Source: Clostridiales bacterium
Lineage (GTDB): Bacteria > Bacillota > Clostridia > Oscillospirales > Oscillospiraceae
Direction: 5' to 3'
Length of the DNA: 64,000 bases
NCBI GenBank assembly: GCA_022774865.1
Contig: JALFLH010000020.1
Coordinates: forward strand, 1 to 64,000
Shown: one piece after another, positions 1 through 15,755 of the stretch
How the letters are laid out: each line of letters opens with the position of its first letter
How positions within the stretch are numbered: the stretch's first letter is position 1
The notes under the pieces: generated by a model
Seen by the model: the letters and a program-made list of their open reading frames with translations, nothing else
Databases searched by the model: none
Told to the model about the DNA's origin: nothing
Translations under genes and position numbers: made by a program

Positions 1-42
1 CTACCGGCTGAAAGCTACCATCCAGAATAAAGCTTAGCAGGG

Positions 43-132
43 TGGCTCAAATATTCGTGAGCGGAGTGGCTCACTTTTTCGTGGTCGTTGGTGGCTCAAA
101 AATTCATGAGCGCCTGGCTCACTTTTTCGTTG
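43..132. repeat. Alternating short direct repeats resembling an IS21-family end
   Basis: Four units begin with TGGCTCA: 43-63 and 92-112 continue AAA.ATTC.TGAGCG, while 67-84 and 115-132 continue CTTTTTCGT. Multiple short repeats at the termini are typical of IS21-family (istA/istB) elements, and this wording resembles such ends in gut Firmicutes. No transposase lies in the window, so any element would extend leftwards or be a remnant. The repeats lie less than 100 bases before a gene that lacks its 5' half, which suggests the element caused the truncation. Confidence 0.5.
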
Positions 133-213: not shown

Positions 214-2157
214 TTCCTTGCAGTGCAAGAGAGCATTCGTGTTGCTCTGGATACTGTTCCCGGTTCCTATAAGGGAGAGAACACATTAAAGGAGAGCGTG
301 ATTGCATGGCTTACTGATCCTGCCCACAATGCGTTTGTGAACAATCTGCTCCAGAAGCCGGAATGGGTGTCCGAATTTTCGCAGTCAACTGCTGATGAAA
401 TTATCAATTCTCTGAAGAAGCGGAATGATGTTGCTGACCTGATGGAGAGCATCTTCAAAATGGCGGCCAAGGAAGGCATCACTGCCCTCTCACTGACTGC
501 GGATTCCCTCTGCGCGTGGATTAAGGACGTTGTCGAGAAAAACTGCATAAAAATTGTTTTAATTTGGGATGAATTCAGCGGATTTTTCCGTCAAAATCGC
601 AATTCCCTGGATGAGTTCCAGAAAATCGTTGCACTCTGTCAGGAAACACATTTCTATTTTGTAATCGTAACGCACCCCATCACTTCCATTGCTGGTGCAT
701 CCATTTCTAAAGACGACCCGATGAGTGTCGTCATGCAACGATATAAGCAGGTGGAAATTACCCTTCCATCGAATATTGCCTTTGAGTTGATAGGCCATGC
801 TTTTTCTGTAATCCCAGCTGCAAAAGATCAGTGGGAGGTCATGACTGGCGATTTAAACTCCAAGGTTTCTGCGTCCAAAGAGGCTGTGAAAAAAGCATCG
901 GAGGTCAAAAGCGACAGCATTATGCAGCATATGCTCCCGATTCATCCGATGGCTGCGCTAGTTTTGAAAAATATTGCATCCGCTTTCCAGTCCAATCAGC
1001 GTAGTATGTTCGATTTTATCAAGACGCCCAAGGATTTGGATGTTCATGCATTCCAGTGGTTTATTCAGAACACCAGCCCGATTTCTGACCGTCCTCTGTT
1101 GACGGTGGATATGTTGTGGGATTTCTTTTATGAAAAAGGCAAGGATTACCTAACATCTGATATCAAATTGGTTCTAGACACATATCCTCAGCAGACTAAC
1201 CTGACCGAAAAAGAAAAAGTCATTTTGAAGACGATCCTGATTATGCAGGCAGTAGACCAGCGGCTGGGTGGGGCCATCCCTGTTTTGAAGCCCACTGACC
1301 AGAATCTGAGCTATGCGTTTGAAGGTGACTGGGATGTTTACGAGAATGAATGTAAGAGTATTGCAAAGGCTCTTGTAAAAAAAGGTGTACTGATTCAAAC
1401 GCCGATTGCGGACGGGAAACAGGTGTATGCTGCCGCAGTTTTGGCCGGTGACGGAGCAAAAATTGATAAACTGAAAGAGGAGGTTCGCAAAAACGGCACT
1501 ATTACAAAACTTGTCGAGGAGGGCACGCAACTTGCATCGGCACTTAGCCTTACGCCTTCGCTGAGACTTCGTTATGCGGTCAATACAGATACTGGTGCAT
1601 TGCCAGTTGTTACGATAGCTAATTTTACTAGGGCGATGGATCAGCTAAAAACAAAAGATGTTGGATGGCACTTCTATGCTGTTCTTGCTGTTGCAAAGAC
1701 AGATGAGGAAGCTCAGACTTTTCGAAACCTTATTAAGAAAACGATTGCAAGTGCTGATTATAAAAATATTCTTGTGATTGATGCGCTATCTTCTCCTTTA
1801 GGGTTGGAAGCCTTTGAGGAGTATGTAGGCTTTTCGGCTATGTCAATGTACTATAATGGCAACAACAATCAGCAGGCTAAAGACAATGCTCGCAAAGCCA
1901 AGGAAGTACTTGACCGTACCTGGAAAGACCGTATTCATGATGGTGCTTTCATCGTCTGGTCCTACGCGAATCAAGATGGCGAAAAAGCAACCGGGGCAAA
2001 TGCAGTTCACACAATCATGCAGACTGTTGTGCTGAATCGGTATAATCACATTCCTGATTTTACCAAGGGCCTGACAGAGAGCCAGTTAAAAATCACAACC
2101 GCAATAAAGCAGATTGTGAAATATGGCTTTGCCCTTTCGAATGATGTGAATCAGTGA
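214..2157 (+). pseudogene. brxC: 5'-truncated BREX ATPase BrxC/PglY
   Basis: The reading frame opens at 214 after a TGA and has no ribosome site; the first usable start is GTG at 223. The 644 residues match the C-terminal half of the roughly 1,200-residue BrxC/PglY ATPase of BREX phage-defence systems. A Walker B strand is visible at about residues 108-120 (KIVLIWDEFSGF), but there is no Walker A P-loop, so the N-terminal ATPase core is missing. It is followed directly by pglZ and brxL, the type 4 BREX order. The upstream break sits next to IS-end-like repeats. The protein is very probably inactive as an ATPase, although the downstream genes are intact. That this is BrxC rather than another large defence ATPase rests mainly on context. 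Confidence 0.75.
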
Positions 2158-2224: not shown

Positions 2225-4288
2225 ATGGATTATCGCCAAAACAGGCATGTTTTGATTGGACTGGGTGAATTCTTAGCTCTTAGAGGCTCGGTTACCGCAG
2301 AAAAGGTGCTTCGTCGTCTGGAAAAAACAACGCTTGGAACAGCGCGGGTCATTCTTCTGTTGCGTTGCGTCACCCCACAGGTAAGTGGACTGTCTGCGGA
2401 AGACAATAGGATTATTGAGCAGCATCGTCTGCATGTGGAACAAAATGCGATTTCATCTGTAACCGTTATCCGCACAAGCTACGCTTCAAAGAACAATGTT
2501 GCTATAGGTGTAAAGGGCCTGTTGCATGATTTGGAAGACGGTCTGTCTGGGAATGTTTATGCAAAATCTGCATTAGATTTCACGAATTCTCTTATACCGG
2601 TAACATATATCGATACTGCATTTACTGCGGTTCAGCACACTGTCCCGGGAATAAAACTGACAGAAGGCATGGGAACCAATGCACAGTGGGAACGGCTGTT
2701 TCAGGAGCTGCTGAAGTACAAAGGCTCTTTGGATAATTTCTTTTCCCGCTATGATTGCCAGGATGACTTTGAGGAGAACATTTATGAAAAATGTGCGGGG
2801 CTAGAGTTCAAAAACTGGGTTTTCTATATTTCGTTGAAGCAGAATTATGAGCGCATCCATAATAGTTATTTGGCATATGTGGTTTCTAATACTGTTTGCT
2901 ACGAGGACTTAAAAAATAATTTATTAACAGAAATTATCCGAATTCCACGGGGAGACCATCGGTTTCGCGCTCTTTATTTGGAGCGTAAAAAGCTGGTTAA
3001 GGAATTTCCAGAGTCTGAAATTGCAATCTTTATTCATGAAAACATCATTGATCCTGCGGAAAGCATCTATCGTTTTACGGATAACACGAAGATGGAACGT
3101 GAAGCAATTATTACCTGGATTGCTCAGTATGGATATATTGATGATATCAAAGAAATCTATCCTGCTTTATCGCAATATCTGAGTGAGTATGTATTTGACT
3201 GTGGTATTTTATCAGACGAGCTGACGAAGTATTTTAAGCAATACAGACTCCTGAAGGTTACGAATCATATTTCGCCTGAATTTCTAGCGCAGGTTGAACA
3301 GAATGCCCAGAGACTCCCGTACACGCACTTAGAGACACGAGACAGCGCGATACTGAGAATTCCAGACAAAAAAGATGCTTTTCTGTTTTGGATTGATGCC
3401 CTAGGCGTGGAGTACCTCCCTTATATCGTTTTGCTTGCGAAAAGGAAAGGATTGTCCATACATACTGACATTACATACGTCGAATTACCGACAATTACAT
3501 CCATTAACAAGGGATTTTTTGAAAAATGGGTAAATTCGCGCAAGGTGAAAGAGTCTCGTCTGGATGAAATCAAACATAAAGCAGAGGGGGGCTATTTCTA
3601 CCACCCCGGTCAGGCCCCAATCCATCTGGCGTCAGAGCTTGAGGTGATTGAAAAAGCGATTGATAGGGCAGCAACCGAGTTGGCCATGCATACATGCAAA
3701 ACATTTGTGATTGCAAGCGATCACGGCGCATCTCGGCTGGCAGTGATTCATCAGCAGGAAGAAAAATACGAAACCGATACCAAAGGAGAACATTCTGGGA
3801 GATGCTGCAAAGCATTCCCAGACGCGGATTTGCCGCAAGCGGTACGCGAAAACGGGTATCTCGTTCTTGCAGACTATGGTCGCTTCAAAAATAGTAGGGC
3901 GGCAAATGTTGAAGTCCACGGCGGCGCTTCCTTAGAAGAAGTGGTGGTTCCGGTCATTGCCCTATCACTGAAGAAACAGAACGATTTGGTTATCAAACTA
4001 CTTAACGCTGAGTCGGTATATTGCGATCGTCATCTGGGCACCACGATTCAACTGTATATTTCGGATGTAGAGAACACAGGGAATGTCAGTGTTGTGATAG
4101 ATGAAAAGCGTTATTCAGCAATGAGCTCCGATACGACCCATTATGTAGTTCCTTTACATGATATTAAGCGTGCAAAAAAGAATGTATCTGCAAATATATA
4201 TGATGGTGATGATCTAATCGGAACGGTTCAATTTGATGTCAAGGGAAAAATGGCTACGGTAAATAACGATTTCGATGACCTGTTTTAA
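2225..4288 (+). CDS. pglZ: BREX phosphatase-like protein PglZ
   Basis: This 687-residue protein carries the PglZ domain of the alkaline-phosphatase superfamily, found in every BREX type. Likely metal-site motifs are an Asp in FWIDALG near residue 388 and the Asp-His pair in ASDHGASR near residue 499, followed by HGGASLEEVVVPV near the C terminus. It sits between the broken brxC and brxL. The start is uncertain. ATG 2225 has no ribosome site, and the frame stays open upstream to 2150 with sensible coding content (DIDDVIDYFRTLD), but without another ATG, GTG or TTG. An AAGGAAG at 2168-2174 may serve an earlier non-standard start, or translation may be coupled to brxC. Confidence 0.85.
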   Translation: MDYRQNRHVLIGLGEFLALRGSVTAEKVLRRLEKTTLGTARVILLLRCVTPQVSGLSAEDNRIIEQHRLHVEQNAISSVTVIRTSYASKNNVAIGVKGLLHDLEDGLSGNVYAKSALDFTNSLIPVTYIDTAFTAVQHTVPGIKLTEGMGTNAQWERLFQELLKYKGSLDNFFSRYDCQDDFEENIYEKCAGLEFKNWVFYISLKQNYERIHNSYLAYVVSNTVCYEDLKNNLLTEIIRIPRGDHRFRALYLERKKLVKEFPESEIAIFIHENIIDPAESIYRFTDNTKMEREAIITWIAQYGYIDDIKEIYPALSQYLSEYVFDCGILSDELTKYFKQYRLLKVTNHISPEFLAQVEQNAQRLPYTHLETRDSAILRIPDKKDAFLFWIDALGVEYLPYIVLLAKRKGLSIHTDITYVELPTITSINKGFFEKWVNSRKVKESRLDEIKHKAEGGYFYHPGQAPIHLASELEVIEKAIDRAATELAMHTCKTFVIASDHGASRLAVIHQQEEKYETDTKGEHSGRCCKAFPDADLPQAVRENGYLVLADYGRFKNSRAANVEVHGGASLEEVVVPVIALSLKKQNDLVIKLLNAESVYCDRHLGTTIQLYISDVENTGNVSVVIDEKRYSAMSSDTTHYVVPLHDIKRAKKNVSANIYDGDDLIGTVQFDVKGKMATVNNDFDDLF

Positions 4289-4300
4289 GGGGAGATTTTG

Positions 4301-5791
4301 ATGGATTGCACGGAACGACTTAGGGACTGCTTTGATGAAATGGTGGTCTACAAAGATCTGAAGAAAACGAACTTCTTTTCTGCGCTCAGTCTACCCTCTT
4401 TCATGAGAGACTGGCTTCTAAAAAAATTTGAGGACGAGGATGGCAACTTTGACAAAGATGACTTGGCGCGTTTTGTAAAGAAATACATCCCCCGCAAAGA
4501 TGATTGGACATCCATTAAGAACAAAGTGATTGTCGAGGGAGAGCGAGTTAAGTTTCTGGCAAAGATTTCTGTAGATATTGATGTCAGAACTGGACAGGTT
4601 TCCTTTGCGCTGCCTGATTTTGGCCTTGGTTATAAAGATACCATCATTGAGAGCGATGTATGGGCTGAATGTAAAGATGACTTGGTCAGAGGTAACGATG
4701 TTTGGGGCATGATTGAATTAGGTTATCGTTCACCGGAGGACTTTGATATTGAATTTGAATACGAGCCAAAGCGCTCCAGAGGAAAATCCTCCCGCGAGGG
4801 GAGAATACGATTGGTTTCATTTAAAAATTTCTGCCCCTATCAGATAGACCTTGACCAGTATAAGGATGCTCGTAGAGAGTTCTCCACTGATGAGTGGATA
4901 GATATTTTACTTGGCGCAGTAGATTACAATGCAAAAGGCTATGAGAGCGGAGAGCAGAAGCTCACAATGCTTACACGGCTGTTGCCTTTTGTAGAAAAAA
5001 GACTGAACCTAATTGAGTTAGCTCCCAAGGGTACCGGCAAATCGTACTTATTTGGCAATGTAAGTCGGCACGGTTGGTTGTCGAGCGGCGGCGTCATGAG
5101 TCGCGCGAAAATGTTCTATGACCAGACCAAACGCAAGGAAGGACTTATTGCCGGCAATGACTTTGTAACGCTTGATGAAGTTCAAACGATTTCCTTTACA
5201 GACACTGACGAGATGAGAGCAGCCTTAAAGGGATATTTGGAACAAGGAAACTTTACTGTTGGTGATTATAAAGGAGTCGCGGACGCAGGCGTCATTCTGT
5301 GTGGAAATATTAGGAAAGAAATAATGGATGCCGATGGATATAGCAACATGTTTACAGAGCTGCCGCCTGTATTCCACGAGTCTGCTTTGATCGAAAGATT
5401 CCATGGATTTATTAAAGGATGGAATATTCCAAGGATGCATGACGATTTGAAAGTAGATGGATGGGCACTGAACTCTGAATACTTCTGCTCAATTATGCAC
5501 GAATTGCGCGGTGATATGACCTATCGAAGCATCGTAGACGAACTGATTATTGTTCCAGAAGGTGCAGATACTAGAGACACAGAAGCTGTAAAGCGTATCT
5601 CTACAGCCTATCTTAAGCTGCTGTTTCCGCATGTTCAAAAAGCATCTGATATCACTCCACGCGAATTCAAACGTTATTGCCTTGATAGAGCGAGGAAGAT
5701 GAGAGATACAATTAAGTACCAGCTGGGATTATTAGATGTAGAGTATAGCGGAAAGGATTTACCTCCCTTTACCGTCAGAGGGGTTGATTAA
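4301..5791 (+). CDS. brxL: BREX Lon-like AAA+ protein BrxL
   Basis: A 496-residue protein of the BrxL family. It shows a P-loop (LAPKGTGKSYLFG, about residue 240) and a Walker B region (FVTLDEVQTISF, about residue 287). The length fits the shorter BrxL form rather than the ~680-residue type 1 proteins, and no clear Lon serine-lysine protease tail is seen. BrxL belongs to types 1 and 4; the absence of pglX nearby favours type 4. ATG 4301 is preferred over TTG 4298 because AGGGGAG lies at the right distance. It begins 12 bases after pglZ, so both are probably one transcript. Confidence 0.87.
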   Translation: MDCTERLRDCFDEMVVYKDLKKTNFFSALSLPSFMRDWLLKKFEDEDGNFDKDDLARFVKKYIPRKDDWTSIKNKVIVEGERVKFLAKISVDIDVRTGQVSFALPDFGLGYKDTIIESDVWAECKDDLVRGNDVWGMIELGYRSPEDFDIEFEYEPKRSRGKSSREGRIRLVSFKNFCPYQIDLDQYKDARREFSTDEWIDILLGAVDYNAKGYESGEQKLTMLTRLLPFVEKRLNLIELAPKGTGKSYLFGNVSRHGWLSSGGVMSRAKMFYDQTKRKEGLIAGNDFVTLDEVQTISFTDTDEMRAALKGYLEQGNFTVGDYKGVADAGVILCGNIRKEIMDADGYSNMFTELPPVFHESALIERFHGFIKGWNIPRMHDDLKVDGWALNSEYFCSIMHELRGDMTYRSIVDELIIVPEGADTRDTEAVKRISTAYLKLLFPHVQKASDITPREFKRYCLDRARKMRDTIKYQLGLLDVEYSGKDLPPFTVRGVD

Positions 5792-5796
5792 ATAAC

Positions 5797-6003
5797 ATGC
5801 GAACTCAAAATTCTAAATGCTATGTCTGTGGTAAAACACCATTAACAAAGGATGAAATCGGTTTGACCAAAAAGCTGATTGGCCGAAACATAAAGGAGTG
5901 GTACTGCATTGATTGCCTGGCAGACTATCTTGAAGTGACAACCGATGAATTGATAGCCAAGATCGAGGCATTCAAAGAAGAAGGATGTTCCTTATTTAAG
6001 TAA
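5797..6003 (+). CDS. Small four-cysteine zinc-ribbon-like protein
   Basis: A 68-residue protein with two CxxC pairs, Cys8/Cys11 (CYVCGK) and Cys37/Cys40 (CIDC), a pattern that usually binds zinc or another metal. The rest is helical and charged. It lies 5 bases after brxL and 13 bases before a cysteine desulfurase, so it should be co-transcribed with both. I do not recognise the family. Its place in the operon suggests an accessory role in the BREX or sulfur-transfer function, but nothing in the sequence proves this. Confidence 0.7.
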   Translation: MRTQNSKCYVCGKTPLTKDEIGLTKKLIGRNIKEWYCIDCLADYLEVTTDELIAKIEAFKEEGCSLFK

Positions 6004-6016
6004 GCGGAGGAAGCCA

Positions 6017-7135
6017 ATGATTTATGCTGATAATGCCGCGACAACCAAACTGGATATAGACGCGTTAGATGCTATGCTCCCTTGGCTACAAGAGAAGTAT
6101 GGAAACGCTTCACAGCCGTATTCGTTTGCCCGCGGACCGAAAAAGGCTCTGGGAGAAGCTAGAGCAACGATTGCTATGTGCATTGGCGCAAACCCGGAAG
6201 AAATCTTTTTTACATCTGGTGGAACAGAAAGCGATAACTGGGCCATCAAGGGTATGCTTCAGTATGCTGACCAGAGAGTTATAATTACAAGCCAGATTGA
6301 GCATCACGCAATACTTCACGCGTGTGAAGCTACAGAGCGTTTGGGATATCCTGTTATTTATCTGCCAGTAAATTCAAAGGGCATCGTTACGCCTGATACA
6401 CTGACGAAATCAATTACAAGAAATACAAAGCTAGTATCAGTGATGCTGGTTAATAACGAAATTGGTTCAATTCAGCCAATTACTGAGTTAGCCAATATTG
6501 CCCATGATCACAGTGCGTTGTTTCATACCGATGCCGTACAAGCGATTGGGCATATTCCCGTCAATGTCAAAGCCCTGGGCGTAGATATGCTATCGGCATC
6601 AGCCCATAAATTTAATGGGCCCAAAGGAATTGGCTTTTTGTATATCCGAAAAGGCACACCTATCCAACCCTTTGTTGACGGCGGATCACAGGAATTTGGG
6701 ATGCGAGCAGGCACCGAAAACGTGGCTTCCATAGTTGGGATGGCAACAGCGTTGAAAAAGAATTGCGATCATTTGGCAGAAACAGGACAAAAGCTCCGCA
6801 CTCTTGAGCAGACATTCATCGAAACACTCCAGAAAGCCAACGTGGATTTTATCCGCAATGGCTCTGATGATAGAGTTCCCGGAAATGTAAGCATTTCGAT
6901 TCGAGATGCCAGTGGAGAGATGCTGCTTCACCGTCTAGATCTGAAGGGTATTTCAATATCTACGGGCTCTGCATGCGATTCTGTGAGCACCAAGATATCG
7001 CATGTGATTCAGGCAATCGGTGTGCCCAAAGAATACGCCGAAGGAACGATACGGGTCAGCTTTGGCCGAGATAATCAGATAGAGGATGCTGTTCAGATTG
7101 CGTCCTGTATCATTGATATCCTTCAGCGGAGATAA
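6017..7135 (+). CDS. Cysteine desulfurase (IscS/DndA-like) at the end of the BREX operon
   Basis: A 372-residue PLP-dependent class V aminotransferase fold enzyme that takes sulfur from L-cysteine as a persulfide. Visible motifs are the His in IEHHAILH, the PLP lysine in SAHKFNGPKG (about residue 198) and the catalytic Cys loop STGSACDS (about residue 320). GCGGAGG precedes the ATG at good spacing. It closes the brxC-pglZ-brxL-small protein operon and is AT-richer than, and different from, the housekeeping copy at 13.6 kb. Type 4 BREX carries BrxP, a PAPS-reductase-like protein related to DndC of DNA phosphorothioation, and Dnd systems use a cysteine desulfurase (DndA). A sulfur-donor role for this BREX is a reasonable inference. 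Confidence 0.9.
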   Translation: MIYADNAATTKLDIDALDAMLPWLQEKYGNASQPYSFARGPKKALGEARATIAMCIGANPEEIFFTSGGTESDNWAIKGMLQYADQRVIITSQIEHHAILHACEATERLGYPVIYLPVNSKGIVTPDTLTKSITRNTKLVSVMLVNNEIGSIQPITELANIAHDHSALFHTDAVQAIGHIPVNVKALGVDMLSASAHKFNGPKGIGFLYIRKGTPIQPFVDGGSQEFGMRAGTENVASIVGMATALKKNCDHLAETGQKLRTLEQTFIETLQKANVDFIRNGSDDRVPGNVSISIRDASGEMLLHRLDLKGISISTGSACDSVSTKISHVIQAIGVPKEYAEGTIRVSFGRDNQIEDAVQIASCIIDILQRR

Positions 7136-7198
7136 GTGCGGTACATACTTTACGCTATATGATAACTACGGCGTAAGGAGATTGCAATAGCTTTTCAG

Positions 7199-7219
7199 AA
7201 ATCATATCTGATATGATTT
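7199..7219. repeat. Perfect 9-bp inverted repeat
   Basis: AAATCATAT and ATATGATTT are separated by CTG, immediately upstream of the terminator hairpin that ends the BREX operon. It could be an operator, part of the transcription end, or chance in AT-rich DNA. Confidence 0.5.
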
Positions 7220-7256
7220 ACCGCCCTCAGGAATTCTCCCGGAGGGCGGTTTCCTG
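7220..7256 (+). terminator. Terminator hairpin after the BREX/desulfurase operon
   Basis: The arms ACCGCCCTC (7220-7228) and GAGGGCGGT (7242-7250) form a strong hairpin, followed by TTCCTGTTAT. The tract is modest. The hairpin lies between two convergent genes and may serve both strands. Confidence 0.7.
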
Positions 7257-7850
7257 TTATAATGGTAGGAATCCCATATACTTCTCTGTCTCAGCAGCGA
7301 ACGCGGCGGTCTGGGAATAGTCTGCCCTGTAACCTGGCACCACCCAGGGAAGGATGTTGTTGGCGATGATATAGCCAGCATAGTGCGCAAGTTTGGGGCC
7401 AGAGCATTCCATGTGGGCGAAGTAATCTTCGATAGCTTCGTGGTGCGCCTTCAGCCCCTCCGGCATAGCTCGATAGAAAGCATCACACACTTCTGCAGCA
7501 GAATCATTCGCCGGAAAATGGCCGATTATGTGATCCTTGATATAATCAATGGTGTCCAGGTGAACGAAGTCGATCATCACAGGGTGATGGAAATTGTCAA
7601 TGTTGACGCGGTATCCCAGGTAACCAGCGTAAGCAACGCGAGAAATGATGTCTTTCTCATGCGCAGACAAGTATTCCTCGAGCGTCGGCTGCATATCGAC
7701 GGGAAGCTCCCGACGGAGGGCTTCTACCGCAGCAAGGTATTTTTTCTCTGATTCCACGAATTCTGGATCGTTCTTACGAAGAACATCAGCCAGAGCCTCA
7801 ATAACTCCGTGGCCTGCAATATGGTACATAATAGCGTCGAGCGTTTTCAT
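7257..7850 (-). CDS. Unrecognised 197-residue protein, His- and acid-rich
   Basis: A soluble, mostly helical protein that I cannot assign. It has many His, Glu and Tyr residues (for example AYAGYLGYRV and HAGYIIANN-like segments) and no signal peptide, membrane segment or clear catalytic motif. The start at 7850 (MKTLDAIMYH) is chosen because AAAGGA lies 8 bases upstream, whereas the ATG at 7859 overlaps that site. It is downstream of and co-directed with an XRE regulator in the same low-GC island, and the two upstream regions share an AGAACKAG sequence, so it may be regulated by that protein. A toxin-antitoxin or defence role is possible but unsupported. Confidence 0.65.
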   Translation of the reverse strand: MKTLDAIMYHIAGHGVIEALADVLRKNDPEFVESEKKYLAAVEALRRELPVDMQPTLEEYLSAHEKDIISRVAYAGYLGYRVNIDNFHHPVMIDFVHLDTIDYIKDHIIGHFPANDSAAEVCDAFYRAMPEGLKAHHEAIEDYFAHMECSGPKLAHYAGYIIANNILPWVVPGYRADYSQTAAFAAETEKYMGFLPL

Positions 7851-8030: not shown

Positions 8031-8345
8031 TTATTCGGTTAATGCACGGACGGCGTTAATGATGCGTGATCGCTCTTTTGCTGGCAACTTCATAATTTCG
8101 GAAGCGAGTTCGCTTGCAATGCCTTCAGAGGAATGTTCGACAACATCCTGTAGTAGTGTGTCTGCGGACACGCCCAGCGCATTTGCGATATTTACAAACG
8201 TCTCTAGCTTCGGAGGTTTTACGCCACGCTCGATCACGCTGATATGAGTGGAGCTAAGATCAACGATAGCCGCAAGATCATCCTGCGTGAGATGCTTCTT
8301 TTCTCTTGCTGCTTTTATCCTGCTCCCGATAGCACCCAAATCCAC
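8031..8345 (-). CDS. XRE-family helix-turn-helix regulator
   Basis: A 104-residue transcription factor. The helix-turn-helix occupies about residues 6-60 (IKAAREKKHLTQDDLA, then STHISVIERG), and the rest is helical. The chosen start is GTG 8345, because GGAAGGAGGT stands 6 bases upstream; the longer open frame to 8498 contains non-protein-like sequence. It is a typical small regulator of mobile islands and probably represses itself and the 197-residue gene downstream. Confidence 0.82.
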   Translation of the reverse strand: MDLGAIGSRIKAAREKKHLTQDDLAAIVDLSSTHISVIERGVKPPKLETFVNIANALGVSADTLLQDVVEHSSEGIASELASEIMKLPAKERSRIINAVRALTE

Positions 8346-8780
8346 GAGAATACCTCCTTCCAGAACGAGTTGTTGTTCTGAAATAATTATAACCAAGGCA
8401 GATGTGGTGATACAGAAGCTAGAATAACGGGTGCTAGTTCTATCGGGATGAAAATGTGAACTGTGCTTCATTCCATTTACTTTCGAGTTTTGATACAATT
8501 GTGGGGTATTAATAATAAACGGAGGGTTACCTATTTTTGCTGGATTTTTGCTGGACTCAAATTAGAGATTTCCGCCAGGTCTAAATTGCACGGCGATTTC
8601 TTCTATTTTCCGGCGGTTAGTGACTGTCCGGCGATTACTACTACTTTCTGGCGATTACAAATCTCAAGGAAGATTTGAGGATAGAAAAAGGGCATCTTCG
8701 GTGGCCTACAAAACCATCGAGGATACCCACATATTTGCGATAATACTTAAAAAGCCTATATTTCAATGGCCTATATGCAA
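8346..8780. other. Gene-free boundary stretch between the XRE gene and tRNA-fMet
   Basis: There is no convincing gene; the 71-residue open frame at 8463-8678 has no ribosome site or familiar content. It contains a tandem repeat of TTTTTGCTGG near 8533-8555, three related copies of CCGGCGATTACT-like sequence between about 8588 and 8658, the inverted repeat CAAATCT/AGATTTG near 8656-8676, and an imperfect hairpin near 8686-8730 whose minus-strand side runs into TTTTT. It may be the edge of an integrated element. Confidence 0.45.
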
Positions 8781-8822: not shown

Positions 8823-8898
8823 TGGTTGCGGAGGCAGGACTCGAACCTTCGACCTCCGGGTTATGAGCCCGACGAGCTTCCAACTGCTCTACTCCGCG
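8823..8898 (-). tRNA. Initiator tRNA-fMet (CAT)
   Basis: A full 76-base cloverleaf with encoded CCA. The anticodon is CAT in loop CTCATAA. Two hallmarks mark it as the initiator rather than the elongator: the first acceptor position is C facing A72 (a mismatch), and the anticodon stem carries three consecutive G-C pairs (GGG/CCC). It marks the right-hand edge of the low-GC defence island, whose sequence begins at its 3' end. Confidence 0.95.
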
Positions 8899-13593: not shown

Positions 13594-14781
13594 ATGCAAG
13601 TTTATGCCGATAACGCCGCGACAACCAAAATGAGTCAAACGGCGATCCGTGCCATGCTTCCTTATTTTGACAACATATATGGCAACCCCTCCAGCCTGCA
13701 CTCCGTGGGGCAGCGGGCCAAGGAGGCGTTGGATGCTGCCCGGGAGACGGTGGCGGGCTGCCTGGGCTGTGATCCCAGAGAAATCATTTTCACCTCCGGC
13801 GGCAGCGAGGCTGACAATCAGGCCATCATCTCCGCCGCCCGTTATGGTGAGAAGCATGGGAAGAAACACATTATCACCACGGCTTTTGAGCACCACGCCG
13901 TGCTCCATACCCTGAAAAAGCTGGAAAAAGAGGGCTTTGAGGTTACCTATCTGGATGTGCGCGAGGGTCATAATGTGAAAGCCCAGCAGGTGAAGGATGC
14001 CATCCGTCCGGATACCTGCCTGGTGACCACCATGTACGCCAACAACGAGATTGGCTCTGTCCTGCCTATTGCGGAAATCGGCGCGATCTGCAGGGAAGCC
14101 GGAGTTCCCTTCCACACCGACGCGGTGCAGGCGGCGGGACACCTGCACATCCATGTGAAGGAGCAGAACATCGATATGCTGAGTCTCTCCGGCCACAAGT
14201 TCCACGGCCCCAAGGGTGTGGGCGCGCTGTATGTCCGCCGGGGCTTTCCACTGGTGAATCTGATTGAGGGCGGCGCCCAGGAGCGGGGCAAGCGCGCGGG
14301 TACGGAGAATATTCCGGGCATCTGCGGCATGGCCGCCGCGCTGAAGGAATCCTGCGACCACATCGATGAGAATATGCCCCGGGTGGCTGCCATGCGTGAC
14401 CGGCTCATCGAGGGCCTGAGCCAGATTCCCCACTGCGCCCTGAACGGCGACCGGGTGAACCGGCTGCCCGGCAATGTGAGCTTCTGCTTTGAGGGCATCG
14501 AGGGCGAGAGCCTGCTGCTTCTGCTGGATCAGAAGGGGGTCTGCGCGTCCTCCGGCTCCGCCTGCACCTCCGGCAGCCTGGACCCAAGCCATGTGCTGCT
14601 GGCCATTGGCCGGGTGCATGACGTGGCGCATGGCTCCCTGCGCCTCTCTCTGAGCGAGTACAATACCGATGCGGAAATCGATCACATTTTGAAGGTGGTT
14701 CCGGAGGTCGTCCAGTATCTGCGGAACATGAGCCCGGTGTGGCGGGATCTCCAGACCGGGAAGCGGCAGTATATTTTGTAA
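13594..14781 (+). CDS. iscS: Housekeeping cysteine desulfurase (NifS/IscS)
   Basis: A 395-residue PLP enzyme that supplies persulfide sulfur for Fe-S cluster assembly. It shows EHHAVLH, the PLP lysine in SGHKFHGPKG (about residue 202) and the catalytic Cys in ASSGSACTSG (about residue 326). A GAGGAGG site precedes ATG 13594. It is followed by an IscU scaffold and an Rrf2 regulator. It is clearly distinct from the desulfurase in the BREX island, and its GC-rich codon use matches its neighbours. Confidence 0.95.
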   Translation: MQVYADNAATTKMSQTAIRAMLPYFDNIYGNPSSLHSVGQRAKEALDAARETVAGCLGCDPREIIFTSGGSEADNQAIISAARYGEKHGKKHIITTAFEHHAVLHTLKKLEKEGFEVTYLDVREGHNVKAQQVKDAIRPDTCLVTTMYANNEIGSVLPIAEIGAICREAGVPFHTDAVQAAGHLHIHVKEQNIDMLSLSGHKFHGPKGVGALYVRRGFPLVNLIEGGAQERGKRAGTENIPGICGMAAALKESCDHIDENMPRVAAMRDRLIEGLSQIPHCALNGDRVNRLPGNVSFCFEGIEGESLLLLLDQKGVCASSGSACTSGSLDPSHVLLAIGRVHDVAHGSLRLSLSEYNTDAEIDHILKVVPEVVQYLRNMSPVWRDLQTGKRQYIL

Positions 14782-14906: not shown

Positions 14907-15335
14907 ATGGCACTGTACAGTGAAAAAGTTATGGATCACTTTACCCATCCCCGGAATGTGGGCGTGATTGAGGATGCCGACGGTGTCGGCGAAGTTGGCA
15001 ACGCCAAATGCGGCGATATCATGAAGATTTATCTGAAGATCAAGGACGATGTCATTGATGATGTGAAATTTGAGACCTTCGGCTGCGGCAGCGCCATCGC
15101 GTCCTCCTCCATGGCCACCGAGATGATCAAGGGAAAGCCTGTGAAGGACGCCATGCAGTTGACCAACAAGGCTGTGGCAGAAGCGCTGGACGGTCTGCCC
15201 GCCCACAAGCTCCACTGCTCCGTCCTGGCGGAGGAAGCCATCAAGGCTGCGCTGAAGGATTACTACGACAAAAACGGGATTCCCTACGATGAGAAGGAAT
15301 TCCCGGACTGCGCCCACTGTGCGCACTGCGAATAA
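14907..15335 (+). CDS. iscU: Fe-S cluster scaffold IscU/NifU
   Basis: A 142-residue scaffold protein. The three cluster-binding Cys are in NAKCGDIMK (about residue 37), FGCGSAIASSS (about 63) and KLHCSVLAEE (about 106). A Cys-rich tail (CAHCAHCE) ends the protein, an oddity seen in some clostridial NifU-like proteins. It works with the desulfurase upstream. The 125-base gap before it holds no recognised gene. Confidence 0.95.
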   Translation: MALYSEKVMDHFTHPRNVGVIEDADGVGEVGNAKCGDIMKIYLKIKDDVIDDVKFETFGCGSAIASSSMATEMIKGKPVKDAMQLTNKAVAEALDGLPAHKLHCSVLAEEAIKAALKDYYDKNGIPYDEKEFPDCAHCAHCE

Positions 15336-15338
15336 GCG

Positions 15339-15755
15339 ATGATCGTATCGACCAAGGGACGCTATGCCCTGCGGGTAATGCTTTGTCTTGCCAAGCGGGA
15401 TGGCGGGGAATACATTCCGCTGAAGGAGATCGCGGAAGCGGAGGGGATTTCCCAGAAATATCTGGAATCCATCATGACCGCGCTTTCCAAGGCCGGCTTT
15501 GTGGACGCGGTGCATGGCAAGGGCGGCGGCTACCGCCTGAACCGCGCGCCCGCGGCGTACACTGTGGGGAGCATTCTCAAGCTGACGGAGGGCAATCTGG
15601 CACCGGTTTCCTGCACCGCACAGGGCGCGGCGGCCTGCTCCCGTTCCACCTGCTGCCAGACGCTGCCCATGTGGGAACGGCTGGATAAAATGATCAACGA
15701 TTTTTTTGAGGGAATCACCATTGCCGACCTGCTCAAAGACGGAGGCGCAACATAA
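15339..15755 (+). CDS. iscR: Rrf2/IscR-family Fe-S sensing regulator
   Basis: A 138-residue winged-helix regulator. The MIVSTKGRYALRVML start and HGKGGGYRL wing are typical of Rrf2 proteins, and the C-terminal half has a Cys cluster (VSCTAQG, CSRSTCC) that would ligate an Fe-S cluster. It begins 3 bases after iscU. Here the regulator is last in the operon, not first as in enterobacteria. The likely target is the palindrome at 13548-13570. Confidence 0.93.
   Translation: MIVSTKGRYALRVMLCLAKRDGGEYIPLKEIAEAEGISQKYLESIMTALSKAGFVDAVHGKGGGYRLNRAPAAYTVGSILKLTEGNLAPVSCTAQGAAACSRSTCCQTLPMWERLDKMINDFFEGITIADLLKDGGAT

Follow-up and report, generated by a model that had tools for sequence, protein, structure and literature searches.

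Sequence analysis of a 64,000-nucleotide stretch from a Clostridiales bacterium of the family Oscillospiraceae (assembly GCA_022774865.1, contig JALFLH010000020.1), hereafter the window, was centred on two adjacent genes at positions 5797-7135, which code for a small cysteine-rich protein and a cysteine desulfurase and stand at the end of a type 4 BREX (bacteriophage exclusion) operon, BREX-4 in short. The window begins at base 1 of a 131.5 kb contig in an assembly of 35 contigs that is 96% complete, and the surviving genes of the operon fill its first 7.2 kb, all on the + strand:

223..2157, + strand: brxC remnant of 644 amino acids, from a profile match and alignment to relatives
2225..4288, + strand: type 4 pglZ with its start missing, similarity extending back to 2150, from models and relatives
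4298..5791, + strand: brxL, full length against the models, from profile matches
5797..6003, + strand: small five-cysteine protein of 68 amino acids, zinc-ribbon/helix-turn-helix (HTH)-like, DUF2197 being distant and below its cut-off
6017..7135, + strand: BREX-4 cysteine desulfurase of 372 amino acids, with pyridoxal-phosphate (PLP) Lys198, catalytic Cys320 and signature His305, without the IscU-docking C-terminal helix
7221..7249, + strand: inverted repeat of 8 base pairs with a 13-base loop, 3' of the desulfurase, found by eye and beyond the loop limit of the scan

An earlier note on this DNA had placed the two genes 5 and 13 bases behind their upstream neighbours, and the open reading frame (ORF) coordinates give exactly these gaps, between brxL and the small-protein ORF and between the latter and the desulfurase ORF. 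Across 4200-7400 the scan listed no promoter-like site on the + strand, and its sole + strand terminator-like match (4883-4898) falls within brxL; the inverted repeat at 7221-7249 is a possible end of the operon. The AT-rich character claimed for the desulfurase was likewise borne out, with 42-46% G+C in the first 7 kb and 52-62% in 44 of the 52 one-kb bins beyond 12 kb. The assignment to type 4 is carried by PglZ, which scores 439.9 bits on NF033445 (cut-off 140) in spite of its truncated start, together with a BrxL of 407.2 bits on TIGR02688 (cut-off 329.3).

The core association of BREX-4 with a desulfurase and a small protein is already in print, so that the novelty formerly attached to this link falls away. 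Excerpts of PMC12839542 (Nucleic Acids Res. 2026) describe type 4 BREX with a cysteine desulfurase and a small zinc-finger protein, likened there to HTH-type transcriptional regulators, and the small protein of the window would correspond to it. In the portions available of PMC12839542, PMC11931770 and PMC12707154, brxPCZL or type 4 BREX is treated as phosphorothioate-making, citing Yuan et al., while the portion available of PMC10853773 does not contain the word BREX.

The order brxL, small protein, desulfurase, whose conservation at other type 4 loci the earlier note had made the measure of its proposal, recurs well beyond the window. A set anchored on the small protein comprised 79 loci from a collection of one genome per species, 51 of which also carry BREX-4 genes and/or a desulfurase; being found through the small protein, it cannot show how frequently BREX-4 occurs without that protein. 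The desulfurase lies directly 3' of the small protein in 36/51 loci, preceded by brxL wherever the contig extends far enough. An intact-looking example is L057 from Lachnotalea glycerini DSM 28816, in which BrxP, BrxC, PglZ, BrxL, the small protein and the desulfurase all occur, the sequence available starting within brxP. The other 15 comprise two that stop at a contig edge (L054, L113), one with a broken relic of the gene (L068) and 12 with no trace of it within the stretch fetched; in one of these 12 (L048) the small protein lies ahead of brxP and the stretch ends inside pglZ, and a desulfurase farther on is possible. A second set, anchored on PglZ, was drawn from a phylum sample of 398 genomes with the window excluded and held 14 loci above the type 4 PglZ cut-off, eight with the small protein and two with the desulfurase, both of the latter also with the small protein. 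This set is small, contigs L125 and L127 are under 5.1 kb, and the desulfurase of L121 is the same as that of L076 in the other set; in L117 the small protein stands between brxP and brxC. Within BREX-4, then, these samples show the small protein as the more widespread companion and the desulfurase as the more restricted one. As many loci derive from metagenome bins, phylum labels may be wrong in places. Two viral records were also noted: L164 (MT835511.1), filed as a bacteriophage from human faeces, yet holding a BREX-4 locus that encodes both the small protein and the desulfurase, and a viral contig with only the end of brxL, on which a BREX-linked desulfurase (L161:1634-3151) has a C-terminal extension of roughly 100 residues.

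The desulfurase of the window is a class-V aminotransferase (PF00266, 263.8 bits) and qualifies as a cysteine desulfurase by its PLP Lys198 and by Cys320, whose column is cysteine in 42/42 BREX-linked sequences (rows L156-L158 are outside this count). It shares fold family, PLP lysine and catalytic cysteine with housekeeping NifS/IscS enzymes such as E. coli IscS and the one encoded in the window itself (44% identity), but falls below the NifS/IscS equivalog cut-offs (TIGR03402, 440.3 vs 530.75 bits; TIGR02006, 319.9 vs 643.2 bits) and equally below that of DndA (TIGR03235, 343.6 vs 480 bits). In the first tree the 42 BREX-linked desulfurases form one clade (support 100/97), whose sister group is made up of NifS/IscS-type enzymes of the window's phylum; one row of that tree (L159_hk) was a mislabelled copy of the window desulfurase and was dropped from later analyses. 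The second tree, to which 20 enzymes chosen by DndA-model score, 18 of the nearest others of the phylum and 3 more DndA or DndA-like enzymes were added, again gathered 39 BREX-4 desulfurases (without the near-duplicates L070, L121 and L044) into one clade against 53 others (support 99/98). By record titles the members come from Bacillota, Spirochaetota, Planctomycetota, Chloroflexota, Synergistota, Atribacterota, Armatimonadota and others, mostly as metagenome bins. Among the 398 phylum genomes, searched at E 1e-105, the sole match above 51% identity outside the window was likewise in a BREX-4 locus, although this line misses the second branch of the clade, about 45-50% identical.

The earlier note had asked whether the desulfurase groups with DndA, the enzyme which serves DNA phosphorothioation in Dnd systems and likewise has a short C-terminal tail. 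A joint clade of BREX-4 and DndA enzymes was rejected by the approximately unbiased (AU) test (p-AU 1.63e-8; four DndA or DndA-like rows, of which L292 and L294 are unannotated and named by similarity only), and a DndA-type enzyme was rejected on the equivalog score, the tree and this test; the lineages are separate. No true DndA above the model cut-off was found in the 398 genomes of the phylum. The PADLOC matches of the window desulfurase to DndA and SspA (436.7 and 432.2 bits) were set aside as evidence, the window's housekeeping enzyme reaching 485.6 and 485.0 bits on the same two models.

The BREX-4 enzymes differ from the housekeeping ones in their C-terminal end and in signature residues. 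The tail after the catalytic cysteine has a median of 52 residues in the 39 BREX-4 enzymes, as against 67 (range 44-77) in 46 other enzymes of the phylum and 50.5 (range 49-59) in the four DndA or DndA-like ones; the BREX-linked L161 has 162 residues after that cysteine. Aligned to E. coli IscS, the window enzyme stops at position 380, and according to the portion of PMC2854127 consulted the IscU contacts on IscS include residues 379-391 and helix 309-316, an IscS without residues 376-404 failing to bind IscU. His305, which aligns with IscS position 315 inside the latter helix, is present in 39/39 BREX-4 enzymes, 0/46 others of the phylum and 0/4 DndA; Ala194 also marks the BREX-4 enzymes and recurs in 3/46 of the others. 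These features suggest that the BREX-4 desulfurase is probably a dedicated sulfur donor freed from iron-sulfur (Fe-S) assembly. The argument that a housekeeping IscS elsewhere makes this copy unneeded for Fe-S assembly fits as far as it goes, since such a gene does lie at 13.6 kb, but redundancy does not separate the groups: a further desulfurase sharing 48% identity or more with the housekeeping enzyme of the window was present in 17/24 genomes with the BREX desulfurase and 7/11 without it (the 48% line was set after the list had been seen, and 24 of the 36 desulfurase loci entered the comparison). Nor do these counts support the notion that genomes carry the BREX desulfurase only when they lack housekeeping ones.

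In contrast to the published type 4 systems, the copy in the window is broken. BrxC matches only profile positions 137-766 of 1376, well short of a full-length protein, and compared with its relatives lacks about 133-145 residues at the start and 600 or more at the end. Similarity to PglZ sets in at about residue 44-47 of the 755-759-residue proteins of three relatives, with pglZ resuming in another frame, and the brxC/pglZ lesion is consistent with the loss of about 2 kb. Since a full-length pglZ homologue (P0241; 755 amino acids, 99% identical) exists elsewhere, only certain strains, or this assembly alone, carry the lesion. A search of the 35 contigs for BrxP, the PAPS (3'-phosphoadenosine 5'-phosphosulfate) reductase-like protein, gave no PF01507 match, with controls detected in 14/14 cases; in relatives brxP sits just upstream of brxC, and because this contig begins inside brxC the gene could lie in unassembled DNA. 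With BrxC incomplete, the locus is a remnant rather than a working system, and the DNA modification is probably no longer made in this genome. The term "self-contained", used in the earlier note for the sulfur supply, is thus not supported for this genome. In a 636-residue protein from another broken BREX-4 locus (P0155), the front of a type 4 PglZ runs into a BREX-4 desulfurase; the two were probably fused by a deletion or by faulty assembly.

The small protein, previously described as having four cysteines, contains five, at positions 8, 11, 37, 40 and 64, arranged as two CxxC pairs and a fifth cysteine in a GC-x-x-F tail and invariant in 36/36 aligned sequences (35 homologues and that of the window). 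The two CxxC pairs are shared with DUF2197 (PF09963), to which residues 5-41 align at 19.9 bits, below the curated cut-off of 22.2. No convincing relative by sequence was found in the PDB (best E 0.09), no match in the PLSDB plasmids and none better than E 0.016 in PHROGs. The structure model has three helices (predicted local distance difference test, pLDDT, 80.9; predicted template modelling score, pTM, 0.60), and its structural matches are weak and mostly HTH domains, among them sigma region 4, AsnC, MntR and DeoR, which agrees with the published remark on HTH regulators and speaks against a role in sulfur transfer.

Relatives of the protein were also found in 28 loci outside recognised BREX loci. 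In 25 of them (L083, L087, L089-L107, L109, L110, L112 and L114) a GH27 alpha-galactosidase gene adjoins, with the relative directly behind it in 24 and ahead in one; the one such neighbour scanned matched Pfam Melibiase_2. Two of the other three copies lie at contig ends and may belong elsewhere (L085, L111), and the third is in a phage (L086:1418-1621, from a Desulfobulbus metagenome bin). In this phage, as on the viral contig L163 (5123-5320), the gene stands between terminase and a portal-like gene. With the BREX-4 small protein of L074, a locus of the Desulfobulbus bin that also gave L086, the phage copies share 78-80% identity; between the two phages identity is 95.6% for the terminase but only 75% for the small protein. 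Related terminases occur in 186 viral loci; in the best 80 of these the small protein is present only in L163's own locus, and the terminase-portal gap is at most 120 bases in 30 of the 40 viral loci where both genes were placed, so the gene looks like an insert. Its ratio of nonsynonymous to synonymous substitution (dN/dS) is 0.33, as against 0.13 for terminase, 0.08 for the portal gene and 0.02-0.11 for three BREX pairs, a fourth pair giving no value; the phage protein is under purifying selection, looser than its neighbours, and signs of an arms race are weak. The L086 copy has a tyrosine at the position of the fifth cysteine. The phage-borne protein could possibly be a decoy against BREX-4. 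In the open-licence PMC literature no report was found of a phage-borne copy or of the missing IscU-docking helix, no search having been aimed at either point.

Taken together, we consider it likely that the genes at 5797-7135 close a type 4, phosphorothioation BREX operon with its own dedicated sulfur donor, broken in this genome, and that the five-cysteine protein is a separate component and not a dedicated carrier. In intact relatives the desulfurase would form a persulfide on its catalytic cysteine and hand the sulfur to BrxP; together with BrxC and the remaining Brx proteins, BrxP would then attach it to DNA. Having lost the IscU-docking helix, the enzyme should not feed Fe-S assembly. 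The claim that the desulfurase supplies sulfur for phosphorothioation stands as far as a dedicated donor is concerned, this being most likely from its own clade and missing helix, and falls as to kinship with DndA; we infer this supply role and regard it as well supported. Directly observed are the gene order, its recurrence, the clade, the missing tail and the damage, whereas the passage of sulfur to BrxP, the horizontal transfer and the part played by the small protein are inferred. Several observations weigh against this interpretation. The 12 BREX-4 loci with no trace of a desulfurase in the fetched stretch make the enzyme dispensable, and its frequency of 2/14 in the PglZ-anchored sample is below the published 56% of taxa. 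Certain ordinary desulfurases are short-tailed as well (minimum 44 residues), so tail length alone is not diagnostic. PMC12839542, in the excerpts available, states that the desulfurase closely resembles DndA, with which our tree of only four DndA rows disagrees. Finally, with BrxP not found and BrxC not intact, the pathway cannot work here as assembled.

One could argue, from its class-V aminotransferase fold, common to IscS and NifS, and from the same 12 loci, that the desulfurase stands here by chance or is an ordinary enzyme of Fe-S assembly, but we hold this to be very improbable: not one of the 53 further enzymes sampled falls within its clade (the BREX rows were collected via the small protein or PglZ, and members elsewhere could be missed), the sole match above 51% identity outside the window in the phylum sample, second branch aside, belongs to a BREX-4 locus, and the docking tail is gone. 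The earlier suggestion of a sulfur carrier concerns the small protein, whose zinc site would hold the fold while Cys64 receives the desulfurase's persulfide and relays it to BrxP. Its position directly upstream of the enzyme (36/36 in the small-protein-anchored set, by construction, and 2/2 in the PglZ-anchored one) and a Cys64 invariant in 50/50 BREX-context copies are in keeping with such a relay. However, all five cysteines are retained in the 36/36 copies with a desulfurase and equally in 14/14 BREX-4 copies with no intact one seen (one at a contig edge), 13 BREX-4 loci with room directly downstream keep the small protein although that place holds no intact desulfurase, and among the 28 non-BREX copies the first four cysteines are kept in 28 and the fifth in 27. 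The fifth cysteine as persulfide acceptor was thus rejected, being conserved without a desulfurase and beside alpha-galactosidase genes; and since the protein persists without the enzyme, beside alpha-galactosidase and in phage, the carrier role is not supported and we judge the relay improbable. A quite possible alternative, which we place somewhat short of even, is that the protein regulates transcription of the operon; its HTH-like shape, the published likening and the presence of relatives in unrelated transcription units next to alpha-galactosidase genes point that way. The small protein is probably a separate BREX-4-linked zinc-ribbon/HTH-like protein, acting as a regulator or as a structural adaptor of the complex. 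A bolder account, which we regard as rather unlikely in its entirety, would derive the desulfurase lineage, along a path independent of DndA, from NifS/IscS ancestors that lost the IscU-docking helix, and would make the five-cysteine protein a BREX-4 control component captured by a phage lineage, one of whose members was binned with a BREX-4-carrying Desulfobulbus, and placed between terminase and portal genes, where it could act as a decoy against BREX-4.

Beyond the operon, the following features complete the setting:

13594..14781, + strand: housekeeping NifS/IscS-type desulfurase, from a profile match and the tree
14907-15335: IscU/NifU-like ORF behind the housekeeping desulfurase, named by eye only
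15339-15755: Rrf2-like ORF next to the IscU/NifU-like ORF, named by eye only
42..131, no strand assigned: four near-copies of GTGGCTCANNNTTTCGTG at the contig start, directly 5' of the surviving brxC

The first of these is the second desulfurase that had been reported at 13.6 kb. The GTGGCTCANNNTTTCGTG pattern has four matches with at most 3 mismatches where 0.85 are expected, the pattern being derived from the same stretch, and positions 1-222 occur once in the assembly; the near-copies are perhaps the end of an insertion sequence. A brxL match is present in only 2/60 genomes (that of the window and its relatives), which makes acquisition most likely, and the operon probably arrived by horizontal transfer. 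The second brxL-positive genome, a congener, likewise encodes the small protein, together with a desulfurase whose 220 available residues match at 67% identity. About 1.7 kb downstream of the desulfurase lies a tRNA-Met gene (8823-8898, - strand), a possible island boundary, with an XRE-type HTH regulator (8031-8498, - strand) in between.

Overall, since the core link is already in print, the locus of the window mainly confirms it. The absence of the Fe-S docking helix from a desulfurase lineage provides a rule, open to testing, by which dedicated phosphorothioation desulfurases can be distinguished from housekeeping ones, and the BREX-4 partner protein carried by a phage is a starting point for learning how this little-studied type of BREX may be met by phages.
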